A DNA stretch of 64,000 bases from Devosia indica. Its GTDB lineage: Bacteria > Pseudomonadota > Alphaproteobacteria > Rhizobiales > Devosiaceae. The stretch is taken from assembly GCF_003056405.1 (NCBI RefSeq), contig NZ_PYVZ01000006.1, forward strand, positions 1-64,000, given 5' to 3'. Below the pieces are notes generated by a model. The model was given only the letters and a program-made list of their open reading frames with translations. It had not been told where the DNA came from and did not search any database. Below, piece after piece: positions 47,062-50,439 of this stretch. The position numbers and the translations under genes are program-made. How positions within the stretch are numbered: the stretch's first letter is position 1; each line of letters opens with the position of its first letter.

Positions 47062-48427
47062 AACGCAGGGCCTCGACCGGGTCATATTGCGCGGCCCGCC
47101 AGGCGGGATAGAGCGTGGCCAGGAAGCTCAGGCCCAGGGCCATGCAGACCACCACGGTGACCTCCATGGGGTCAGTGCGGCTGGGGAGCGAGGAGAGGAA
47201 GAAGACTTCGGGCGGGAACAGGGTCACCCCGAGCAGATTGGAGATTGACGCACGCAAGGCCTCGGCATTGGCGGCGACAATCAGGCCGACAACAGTTCCC
47301 ACCAGCGTACCAATGACGCCGATGGCGGTGCCGGTGATGGAGAAAATGCGCATGATGGCGCCACGGGTCGCGCCCATGGTGCGCAGCACGGCGATGTCGG
47401 CACCCTTGTCCTTCACCAGCATGATGAGGCTGGAGATGATGTTGAAGGCGGCCACGAGGATGATCATGGATAGAATGGTGAACATCACCACGCGCTCGAC
47501 CTGAAGGGCCGAGAAGAAGGTTTCGTTGCGCTGCTGCCAGTCGGTCAGGACCAGCGGGCGGACGTCCGGCGCCGATTGCAGACGCTGGCGCATCAGGGAC
47601 ACTTCATCGGGATCGTCTATGAACACTTCGACGGCCGTGGCGCGGGGAACGCGTTCATAGGCGGCGTCGATTTCGGCGTCGCTGGCGAGCGGATCGAGCC
47701 GTTCCATGCCGGGCTTGAGGACCTCGTCGACCATGCGGAAATAGTCCTGCGCGGCCTCGAGCGGCATGTACATGAAGAAGCTGTCGAACTCGACCATGCC
47801 CAGATTGTAGATGGCGTTGACCGGGTAAGAGCGGATCTGCGGGGTCGAGCCGAAGGGCGTCATGGCGCCATCTGGATTGATGATCTGCACCTGATCACCG
47901 ATGCCGAGGCCCAGCGTCTGGGCCAAGCGATAGCCGATGGCGACGCCCCGGCTGCCGTCCCACTGGTCGAAGCCGCCCTGCTCTGCCGAGTTGTAGAGCA
48001 GATCGAGCTTTTTGAGATTTTCCTCATCCATGCCGCGCACGGAAACGCCGGTGGACGAGCCGCGGCCGGAAGCCAGCACCTGGCCTTCGACGAAATATAC
48101 GGCGAAGGAAACGCCATCGACCTGCTCAAGGGCGGCCACGGTTTCCTTGTAGTCGGTGAACTGGCTCTCGATGGGATGGGCGGTGAAATGACCGTTCAGG
48201 CCCAAGATCTTATCGAGCAGTTCGCCGCGGAAACCATTCATCACCGACATGACGACGATGAGGGTCGCCACGCCAATGGCCACGCCGACCATGGTGAGGC
48301 TGGCAATGACCGAGATGAAGGCTTCCTTGCGGCGGGCGCGCAGATAGCGCCCGGCGATCAACCATTCGAAGCGGGCGAATGGCCGGGTTGCCCGGCCTCC
48401 CCTCGGCATTGGCGCGCTGTCGGTCAA
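47054..48427 (-). CDS. Lipoprotein-releasing ABC transporter permease (LolC/LolE family)
   Basis: Permease partner of LolD, 457 residues. N-terminal [22 protein letters not shown] leads into TM helix 1, a large periplasmic domain spans about residues 70-310, and three TM helices follow, with [15 protein letters not shown] in the conserved cytoplasmic loop. Only one permease gene is adjacent to lolD; many alphaproteobacteria use a single LolC/E-like (LolF) chain as a homodimer. ATGA overlap with proS. Confidence 0.93.
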
Positions 48428-49773
48428 ATGTCGGTCATCCGTTGGGGTTCGATCAGGCCCTTGAGACGCGCGACCGCCTCGGTGAGCGGCAGCGATTCGC
48501 GCTCGCCGGTCTTGCGATGCTTGATTTCAACTTCGCCCGATTTAAGGCCACGCGGCCCCAGGATGAGCTGATAGGGAATGCCGACCAGGTCAGCGGTGGC
48601 GAATTTGGAGCCGGCCGGCTGGTCGCGATCGTCATAGAGCATGTCGAGACCGGCGGCGGTCAGCTCGGCATAGAGCTTGTCGCAGGCCGCGTCGGTGTCG
48701 GCATCGCCGGCCTTGAGATTGATCAGGACGGCCTCGAAGGGCGCGACCGAAACCGGCCAGATGATGCCGTTTTCGTCGTGGCTGGCCTCGATGATGGCCG
48801 GCACGACGCGGGTCAGGCCGATGCCGTAGGAGCCCATATGCACGATGGTTTCCTTGCCATCCTGGCCGGTGACGCTGGCCTTCATGGGCTCGGAATATTT
48901 GGTGCCGAAATAGAAGATGTGTCCAACCTCGATGCCGCGGGCGGAAACGCGCTTGTCCTCGGGCACGGCGGCTTCGTATTCGCCCTGGTCGACCATTTCC
49001 TCGGTGGCGGCGTAGAGCGAGGTCCAGTCGTTGAAGATGGGCTTGAGGTCGCCCATGAAATCGGTGTCCTGGCCGGGAATGGGCTTGTCGAGCAGGTCGC
49101 GGTGGCAGAAGACCTGGCTTTCGCCGGTTTCGGCCAGGATGATCCATTCATGGCTGAGATCGCCGCCGATGGGGCCGGTATCGGCGCGCATGGGGATGGC
49201 GGTCAGGCCCATGCGGGCATAGGTGCGCAGATAGGCCACAAACATACGCTCATAGGCCTTGACCGCGTCTTCCTTGGTCAGGTCGAAACTGTAGGCATCC
49301 TTCATGAGGAATTCGCGGGAGCGCATGGTGCCAAAGCGCGGGCGCACCTCGTCGCGGAACTTCCACTGGATGTGGTAGAGATTAAGCGGCAGGTCCTTGT
49401 AGGACTTCACATAGGTGCGGAAGATGTCGGTGATCATCTCCTCATTGGTGGGACCATAGAGGAATTCGCGCTCGTGCCGGTCCTCAATGCGCAGCATCTC
49501 CTTGCCATAGGCGTCGTAGCGCCCCGATTCGCGCCAGAGATCGGCGGACTGGATGGTGGGCATGAGCAGCTCAATCGCGCCGGAGCGATTCTGCTCCTCC
49601 TCGATGATCTTCTGCACCTTCATCAGCACCTTGTAGCCGAGCGGCAGCCAGGAATAGAGGCCGGAGGCCTGCTGGCGGATCATGCCGGCGCGCAGCATCA
49701 GGCGGTGCGAAACGATCTCGGCTTCCTTGGGCACATCACGAAGCACCGGCAGAAAATAGCGGGAAAGGCGCAT
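48424..49773 (-). CDS. proS: Prolyl-tRNA synthetase (short, alphaproteobacterial type)
   Basis: Class II synthetase of 449 residues, starting [20 protein letters not shown]. Motif 2 and 3 regions are visible ([41 protein letters not shown]), and an anticodon-binding domain closes the chain. It lacks the inserted editing domain of the E. coli type, as is usual in this class, so Ala-tRNA-Pro clearance would need a separate factor. The ATG at 49773 has GGAG; a longer frame to 49911 runs through a repeat. Confidence 0.97.
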
Positions 49774-49799: not shown

Positions 49800-49848
49800 G
49801 AGCATGTTCTTGTCGGAAAACCGGCAACCACTTTTCCGGAACATGCTC
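49800..49848. repeat. Hyphomicrobiales-type palindromic intergenic repeat, copy 1
   Basis: GAGCATGTTC at 49800-49809 and GAACATGCTC at 49839-49848 are perfect inverted arms around the core CGGAAAACCGGCAACCACTTTTCCG. The core is shared with the copy at 53772-53820 and resembles a repeat very common between genes in this order. It lies just upstream of proS. Confidence 0.75.
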
Positions 49849-49931
49849 ACGTCGACTCGCAGGATTTGTTGATGCACACTCAAATCGCAACCGTCCATTC
49901 GATGCAAGCATGCAAGCTATGCAGAATCTAC

Positions 49932-49960
49932 TTGGCAGAGCGATTTTCTGTTGTTAGGGT
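49932..49960 (+). promoter_or_regulatory. Predicted promoter of the candidate small RNA
   Basis: TTGGCA at 49932-49937 and TAGGGT at 49955-49960 are 17 bp apart on the plus strand. Transcription would begin near 49967, where no protein gene follows but a folded, terminated segment does. Confidence 0.45.
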
Positions 49961-49966
49961 CCGCCC

Positions 49967-50105
49967 CAATAAAACAAAGGTGGCCCAAACCGCCGGACGT
50001 CGACAACGTCAAGGGAGGAGCGTTGGCAGCCGCTTCGTAGCGCGCCTAAGACCAACGTATTGTCGAACAAACTCATTCCAGCAGGGCCTTGTGCCCTGCT
50101 TTTTT
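49967..50105 (+). ncRNA. Candidate structured small RNA (or leader of the YjbR gene)
   Basis: The segment is bounded by a promoter-like pair and a textbook terminator. Inside, three nested stems can be read directly: TCGACAA (50000-50006) with TTGTCGA (50060-50066), CGTTGG (50021-50026) with CCAACG (50052-50057), and CGCT TCGT AGCG at 50031-50042. A purine-rich single strand AAGGGAGGAG (50011-50020) lies in the asymmetric inner loop. It does not match tmRNA, RNase P, SRP or 6S RNA in any part I can recognise. The terminator is only 20 bases before the YjbR start, so it could instead be an attenuating leader. Confidence 0.5.
50081..50105 (+). terminator. Rho-independent terminator upstream of the YjbR gene
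   Basis: GCAGGGC (50081-50087) / GCCCTGC (50093-50099), loop CTTGT, then six T. On the plus strand no annotated gene ends nearby, which is the main argument for a small RNA here. Confidence 0.85.
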
Positions 50106-50124
50106 GTTTGAGGAACAATTTACT

Positions 50125-50439
50125 ATGGTCGATGCCGCAACATTCACGCGAATTGCGTTGAGTCTGCCGGGGACGACCTCCGCGCCGCATTTCGACAGGG
50201 TCGCGTTCAAGGTGAAACGCACCTTTGCGACTCTGGCGGCCGACGGCCGGAGCGCCAATATCAAATTCACGCCAGAAGAGCAGGAATTGAAGTGCATGGT
50301 CGCGCCGGAGATATTCCGGGCCATCGACAATGGCTGGGGACGCCAAGGCTGGACGACCATGACCCTCGCATCGGCCAATGAGGCGGACATCGTAGCCGCG
50401 CTTGGGCTGGCCCATATGCACGCGGTGGCAAAGAAGTAG
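50125..50439 (+). CDS. MmcQ/YjbR family protein
   Basis: A 104-residue protein with the YjbR fold pattern: ALSLPGTTSAPHFDRVAFKV, ATLAADGRSANIKFTPEEQ and NGWGRQGWTTMTLASAN. Family members resemble DNA-binding folds but have no agreed function. The ATG at 50125 has GAGGAAC. It sits alone between proS and the DUF1467 gene, just after a terminator. Confidence 0.8.
   Translation: MVDAATFTRIALSLPGTTSAPHFDRVAFKVKRTFATLAADGRSANIKFTPEEQELKCMVAPEIFRAIDNGWGRQGWTTMTLASANEADIVAALGLAHMHAVAKK

Follow-up and report, generated by a model that had tools for sequence, protein, structure and literature searches.

The DNA analyzed here is a 64,000 nt stretch of Devosia indica, which we call the window. Judging from its sequence, the segment 49969–50107 of the plus strand is an independent small RNA gene, with its own promoter, conserved stems, an exposed AAGGGAGGAG motif and a terminator, and it is presumably expressed in Devosia. 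Sequence comparison identifies this RNA as the Devosia ortholog of ar9 (RF02343; SmrC9/sra32/SmelC289), not as a new class. Made from its own gene divergent to proS, it is probably a sponge of another small RNA, mmgR. The ar9 family was already known; what appears to be new is its Devosia form and the pairing of ar9 with mmgR. The features of the locus are as follows.

48424–49773, minus strand: proS (prolyl-tRNA synthetase), start at 49773, Pfam PF00587 and PF03129; divergent neighbour which marks the ar9 locus
49932–49937, plus strand: -35 element TTGGCA, read from the sequence; GTGACA in many Devosia copies
49955–49960, plus strand: -10 element TAGGGT, read from the sequence, 17 bp from the -35 element
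49969–50107, plus strand: sRNA gene, ar9 ortholog, about 139 nt, probable start at 49968/49969
49979–49983 with 49990–49994, plus strand: 5' hairpin P1, 100% of alignment cells paired, double changes at two pairs
50000–50006 with 50060–50066, plus strand: outer closing stem P2, 98.5% of cells paired in 58 Devosia sequences, no double changes
50007–50020, plus strand: exposed stretch CGUCAAGGGAGGAG, read from the sequence
50008–50022, plus strand: exposed GUCAAGGGAGGAGCG, predicted mmgR pairing site (core CGUUCCUCCCUUGAC), from duplex prediction; its last two bases fall within P3
50021–50026 with 50052–50057, plus strand: middle stem P3, 100% of cells paired
50029–50034 with 50039–50045, plus strand: inner stem P4, with one bulge, 97.1% of cells paired, double changes at two pairs
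50080–50105, plus strand: intrinsic terminator, hairpin (50080–50100) and U-run, from a terminator scan
50125–50439, plus strand: yjbR-family gene, outside the ar9 unit, Pfam PF04237 (35.6 bits)

An independent structured RNA was the original prediction for this locus, and sequence comparison confirms it, since promoter, stems and terminator are all conserved. The proposed -35/-10 pair with a 17 bp spacing is present, as are the exposed purine loop and the terminator. A promoter pattern, [TG]TGRCA-N16/17-TAnnnT, precedes the RNA in 59 of 60 Devosia copies, where the -10 element has a mean identity of 92% to the window. A similar pattern (N17/18) appears in 50 of the 71 proS-linked ar9 copies of other genera. 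The pattern was composed after the sequences had been inspected, and its control is shuffles of the same upstream DNA, which contain 0.3 patterns on average for those 71 copies, with a maximum of 3. The interval first proposed, 49932–50124, does contain an sRNA gene, but its promoter-side bases are probably untranscribed, because the transcript probably starts at 49968/49969.

Two other sequences lie between proS and ar9. Immediately 5' of the ar9 promoter, ATGCAAGCTATGCAGAATC (49910–49931) has a mean identity of 0.87 across Devosia and a single exact copy in the window; it may be a site for a regulator of ar9 or proS. The 5' region of proS contains an inverted repeat at 49800–49848, GAGCATGTTC...GAACATGCTC with TTCCGGAAAAGTGG, whose inner motif has one copy in the window. 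It gives a weak match to the Brucella sRNA BASRCI27 (18.3 bits, cut-off 59.8), and it has the look of a dispersed palindromic repeat of Rhizobiales.

Taken alone, the window sequence is only mildly unusual in this region, and its statistics are modest. The fold z-score of the ar9 RNA is -2.15, with 6 of 200 shuffles equally good. It is -1.98 for the whole interval first proposed and -1.87 for the opposite strand, about equal to the plus strand. Between 49000 and 51000, a generic scanner found no sigma-70 promoters and two terminators versus 1.9 in shuffles, which is no excess. The single-sequence signal is mild, and it is the comparison across genomes which lifts it above chance.

Of 61 genomes in the genus, 60 contain the ar9 region as judged by a DNA search. 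In genome G050, our Devosia RNA model (R1) gives only a 23.6-bit match, comparable to off-target ones. We aligned 58 of the 60 copies, leaving out a truncated one (L090) and a degraded one (L088). The latter comes from a 2.0 Mb genome (G053), where the ar9 terminator and promoter region are degraded and proS is 604 bases off; this copy is probably decaying, in a genome that has been reduced. Mean identity is 0.89 across the RNA, versus 0.37 downstream of the terminator, where conservation ends. The motif GGGAGGAGC is invariant in all 60 copies, and position 50011 is the sole variable one within 50008–50021.

In the alignment, the 32 pairs of the drawn structure are standard in 98.5% of their cells. 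Slid registers of the drawn structure pair at 32–45%, a control which favours this structure because it was drawn from the same sequences. Seven pairs have double changes, versus 1.6 in shuffles. They are found in P1, P3, P4 and the terminator, where one pair changes from G-C to A-U in 20 of the 58 sequences. Further pair types are not significantly enriched, as 60 of 500 shuffles have as many. When unaided, RNAalifold proposes a partly different inner pairing, with 28 pairs, three of them with double changes. P3 as drawn is supported by the exchanges at one of its pairs, G-C to A-U once and G-C to C-G once. All three nested stems of the original prediction are present in the sequence and pair across Devosia. 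The suggested covariation check finds compensating changes in most stems of the 58 sequences, but none in P2, the outermost one.

A leader or attenuator of the yjbR gene was the main alternative. In fact, the terminator ends about 20 bases 5' of the yjbR start, and yjbR is found downstream in 42 of the 60 Devosia loci. On the other hand, a tblastn search (E 1e-4), which a much-diverged yjbR could escape, gives no match in 17 of the 59 Devosia loci whose downstream DNA is long enough, and none in the 80 ar9 loci fetched from other genera; promoter, RNA and terminator persist there. The Devosia loci with no match are 18 if we include L090, which has no downstream DNA. By synteny, a leader of yjbR is highly improbable. 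Still less credible is a messenger for a very short peptide, with a UUG start after GGGAGGAG. All 60 Devosia copies have such a UUG after the purine run, but its frame varies from 4 to 30 codons across 59 sequences, at times exceeding the RNA, and a start codon is absent at that distance in 61 of 68 other motif-bearing copies. A leader peptide was rejected, as no reading frame is kept.

No known class had been recognised in this RNA. This has to be revised: it belongs with ar9/SmrC9, though it scores 23.6 bits against a cut-off of 45. Rfam, suggested as a check, gives no matches in the window at the cut-offs of its models, but a permissive scan aligns RF02343 in full length (1–149) with 49969–50107, at 23.6 bits and E 0.08. 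Since this is below the 45-bit gathering cut-off, we call the window RNA an ortholog and a divergent variant, not a member of the Rfam family. Many other copies are in the same situation. In a sample of the order, 110 of 297 genomes have RF02343 matches at E 0.1; 48 are over the cut-off and 62 score below it, so the cut-off excludes much of the family, the window copy included. This order search, with stricter filters, gave no match at E 0.1 in the window's own genome or in the Devosia listed.

From the 114 matches of the order search we fetched 80 loci (34 were not fetched), and 71 of these are divergent to proS, including all 38 among those over the cut-off. The distance to the proS start is 171–529 bases in these 71 loci. 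In Devosia, ar9 is divergent to proS in 60 of 60 copies, 78–604 bases away. One of the nine fetched matches where proS is not found, L104, is truncated by a contig end towards proS; three more, L116, L117 and L118, come from genomes which have another, stronger match.

The R1 model bridges the gap between Devosia and the other genera. It gives 170.6 bits at the window copy, whose sequence was used to build it, and 24.2 bits (E 0.005) at the next-best place in the genome, G000:C13:18384-18519. It matches other genera of the family at 62–122 bits, and two of these give 28–31 bits with RF02343. In remote loci, R1 finds the ar9 place in 31 of 77 cases at 20–29 bits, some of them through the terminator half only, and its off-place matches there reach up to 19 bits. 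A full-length match, proS synteny and bridging sister genera indicate that the window RNA is ar9 by descent, even if it fails the formal Rfam score. A new RNA class was ruled out by the match to the ar9 model and by proS synteny. In its sequence, the window copy has the promoter of its own and the Rho-independent terminator which are characteristic of ar9, in the slot divergent to proS.

Among the matches listed in a scan for the remote-type motif are Mesorhizobium, Stappia, Roseibium, Methylopila, Rhodobium, Hyphomicrobiaceae and others, proS adjacency not having been checked for each record. A class sample of 289 genomes (as listed, the window's own genome, three of the same order, then other orders) gives two RF02343 matches, both below the cut-off and outside the order: L376 (G402), with 28.9 bits, and L377 (G470), with 28.3 bits.

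According to the accessible parts of the published reports, ar9 was detected in Sinorhizobium in 2007, and the only targets given there are untested, computed mRNAs (PMC2245857). In S. meliloti, smrC9/sra32 is located between SMc01933 and proS, is transcribed away from proS and has 149 nt (PMC2780559, PMC2573895, PMC2245857). It is expressed as a transcript of about 149 nt, which is bound by Hfq (PMC2780559, PMC2848018). It peaks in log phase, with a negative northern blot in nodules (PMC2780559, PMC2848018); a later review lists SmrC9 in a table for nodule zone II. Northern signals for sra32 were also obtained in Agrobacterium and Rhizobium etli (PMC2245857). A 2011 survey, in the part available, covers relatives in Rhizobiaceae, Brucellaceae and Phyllobacteriaceae, all but one adjoining proS (PMC3927594). 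In the accessible text of the open-access literature from 2011 on, only one review mentions two or more of the names SmelC289, SmelC689, sra32, MmgR and smrC9 together. We found neither the Devosia form of ar9 nor its pairing with mmgR in open-access print, a scope outside which fall del Val 2012 and Lagares 2016, reportedly the main papers on the alpha-r9 and alpha-r8 families.

One guess for the purine run had been pairing with some pyrimidine-rich target, and the best target found is the CU-rich core of mmgR, an alpha-r8 sRNA, complementary to 50008–50022. The published text available describes alpha-r8 sRNAs as having an exposed UUUCCUCCCU core (PMC12559287), and mmgR as limiting PHB storage in S. 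meliloti (PMC12559287, PMC8844928). In the window's own genome, a stretch with RNA-like features, including CGUUCCUCCCUUGAC and a terminator, lies after the FGase gene, on the opposite strand, between this gene and one for inositol-monophosphatase. The mmgR model RF00519 gives 27.8 bits (E 3.5e-4) at this mmgR-like copy (contig G000:C68), below its cut-off of 41; the copies of three other genomes are over it, with 75.5, 66 and 61.5 bits. Like known mmgR, the own-genome copy has the FGase neighbour, the core and the terminator; it is the predicted partner of ar9 on another contig, not the window element itself. A copy of mmgR adjoins FGase in 57 of the 63 other-family genomes; within Devosiaceae, 25 of 61 Devosia and all 6 of the remaining genomes have one.

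Some mmgR copies have features of their own. Two or three tandem mmgR-like copies are found beside FGase in L316 (G180) and L332 (G145). In family f44 (L411-L414, L417, L418, L422, L423, L426) the mmgR core reads UUUCCUCCUUAGAC instead, so that one pair with ar9 becomes G-U. We also looked for partners in the window's own genome by other means. The published core TTTCCTCCCT was tried as a probe and rejected: by eye, none of its eight places is followed by a terminator, and several are antisense to likely start sites. A scan from CCTCCC to a U-run gave seven rows at five places, of which one looks sRNA-like. This is L274, at about position 1500 on the minus strand (G000:C45:135892-135934), where CCUCCCUGUUAACUUC is followed by a terminator. 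It is a candidate CU-rich sRNA which resembles the CUCCCUGU motif reported for SmelC671, and a possible second ligand of ar9.

The pairing was analyzed in 88 genomes, forming 18 groups, which have both RNAs. Group means are 11–21 bp with one mismatch. In Devosia there are 13.9 contiguous pairs on average, while 9 of the 16 groups from other families have 12 pairs, one mismatch and 7–9 more pairs. Group f10 has about 20 pairs with a bulge, and groups f23, f27, f40 and f44 have a weaker flank, with 11–14 pairs if one mismatch is allowed. Pairing at positions 0 to 5 is imposed by the anchor chosen; position 0 is G-C in 79 genomes and G-U in 9. Outside the anchor, flank pairing is 0.82 in register versus 0.08–0.57 when shifted. 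Position -2 is A-U in 31 genomes, all of them Devosiaceae, and U-A in 54 of the 57 others; in G247, G324 and G196 this pair is missing or wobble only. In these sequences, the difference is a compensated change in Devosiaceae.

When partners are swapped between groups, none of 20,000 permutations is as good, either for standard pairs or for energy, and the fraction is 0.0004 for Watson-Crick pairs alone, as it is for energy when the exposed core is used. The test compares groups which are not independent, and the Devosiaceae difference contributes much to it. With its own mmgR core, Devosiaceae ar9 reaches -28.7 kcal/mol versus -20.3 with the core of other families; the preference of other-family ar9 is small, -22.5 versus -21.9. 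Whole-RNA hybridization of ar9 with mmgR gives a global duplex, which is uninformative.

Comparison with other sites of the same genomes bears on whether ar9 might be an ordinary trans-acting sRNA directed at mRNAs, its match to mmgR being secondary. For the exposed mmgR core, only 8 of 135,586 control sites, taken from the stretches fetched for each genome, are as good as ar9, and none is in 85 of the 88 genomes; the exceptions are G324, G196 and G256. Within the window, the ar9 site ranks first of 63,972, at -29.9, with the next at -25.4. A longer mmgR piece, including terminator bases, is less specific: 31 of 240,836 windows are as good, in 15 of 56 genomes, and two places in our window slightly exceed ar9 (-32.5 and -32.3 versus -32.2). 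In the published text available, SmrC9 is classed as a putative trans-acting riboregulator (PMC2780559), and TargetRNA pairs sra32 nt 60–95 with the fliM and smc01800 leaders by computation (PMC2245857). The purine-rich loop, though, is itself Shine-Dalgarno-like and should not be complementary to such a site, and the mmgR site beats every control site in those 85 genomes, so direct action on mRNAs appears improbable.

Not all ar9-bearing genomes have a recognizable mmgR. An exact-core search of whole genomes finds none in 35 of the 60 Devosia with ar9, a few of which are incomplete assemblies. The exact 13-mer is absent from these genomes, or, in G035, found elsewhere without a terminator. 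With one mismatch allowed, nothing recurrent is found in 34 of the 35 except the complement of ar9 itself, and inspection of the FGase flank in 32 of the 35 revealed no mmgR. Nor was mmgR seen beside FGase in 6 of the 63 other-family genomes with ar9, including all three of family f43. Since GGGAGGAGC is unchanged in all 35 Devosia, ar9 should have another or an added role. Its retention in these and in the six other-family genomes makes a second ligand likely. Position 50011, inside the mmgR match, is changed in 6 of the 35 genomes with no recognizable mmgR versus 0 of the 25 with it (Fisher p 0.036). Parsimony on the proS tree reduces this to four changes, two of them forced by well-supported branches, so a relaxation of the motif when mmgR is absent is suggestive only.

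The invariance of GGGAGGAGC in 60 of 60 Devosia, these 35 included, would also fit a general decoy, in which the Shine-Dalgarno-like loop binds several anti-SD sRNAs (alpha-r14, AbcR, CUCCCUGU-type), a protein or the ribosome, and mmgR is one ligand. GGGAGG suits any anti-SD sRNA, the own genome has the CU-rich, terminator-bearing candidate L274, and a second GGGAGG is seen by eye in eight fetched f10 copies. Against this, the core is flanked by bases (GUCAA in the window, in most other cases GGUCUGAGUCU) which fit mmgR in register and change together with it from group to group, which leaves the decoy rather unlikely. The second GGGAGG of the f10 copies (L046, L048, L051, L052, L058, L059, L095 and L128) is further downstream in ar9, as though there were two binding sites.

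The complementarity itself points to the sponge: an exposed loop which is largely complementary to mmgR probably works by catching it. The sequences show the gene, its structure, its orthology, the complementarity and the co-variation with mmgR. In the mechanism that we propose, ar9 would be transcribed independently, away from proS, and its unpaired purine motif (GUCAAGGGAGGAGCG in the window, as a rule GGUCUGAGUCUUGGGAGGAA in the other families) would pair with the pyrimidine core of mmgR, perhaps with the help of Hfq. This would cover the anti-Shine-Dalgarno core of mmgR and keep mmgR off its mRNA targets. Decay of mmgR would probably be hastened, and the mRNAs which it otherwise silences would be freed. 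Control would presumably run from ar9 to mmgR and not in the reverse direction. We give an even chance to a broader proposal: ar9 and mmgR may be a co-evolving sRNA/anti-sRNA pair as old as the Hyphomicrobiales; in roughly half of Devosia, mmgR would have been lost and the surviving sponge would act on a second ligand.

If the sponge model is true, it gives a function to ar9, an RNA known since 2007. The match with mmgR, a regulator of PHB carbon storage in S. meliloti, is antisense, extends over the order and includes a compensated change.

Compared with known systems, the window RNA resembles ar9/SmrC9 of S. meliloti in its slot divergent to proS, its sigma-70 type promoter and its length of about 140–150 nt, as well as in the 5' hairpin, the closing stem, the GUC..GGGAGGA motif and the terminator. 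By eye against the model, it differs in having AAGGGAGGAG instead of UUGGGAGGA and a closing stem UCGACAA/UUGUCGA, and one multiloop hairpin of RF02343 is apparently absent. Another relevant system is CrfA of Caulobacter crescentus, which, according to the accessible text, sponges the alpha-R8 sRNAs SisA-D through a purine-rich loop and the same core (PMC12559287). RF02343 has no matches in 14 control genomes, presumably including Caulobacter vibrioides. The sponge role of ar9 is predicted from sequence complementarity, and in most groups its match reaches beyond the core, two differences from CrfA. Both RNAs have a purine-rich part complementary to the UUUCCUCCCU core of alpha-r8 sRNAs, ar9 having in its sequence the exposed site, complementary to the seed of its partner, which is expected of an sRNA sponge. 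Sponges of alpha-r8 sRNAs have been reported for Caulobacter, and the match of ar9 with mmgR suggests their origin or persistence in another order.
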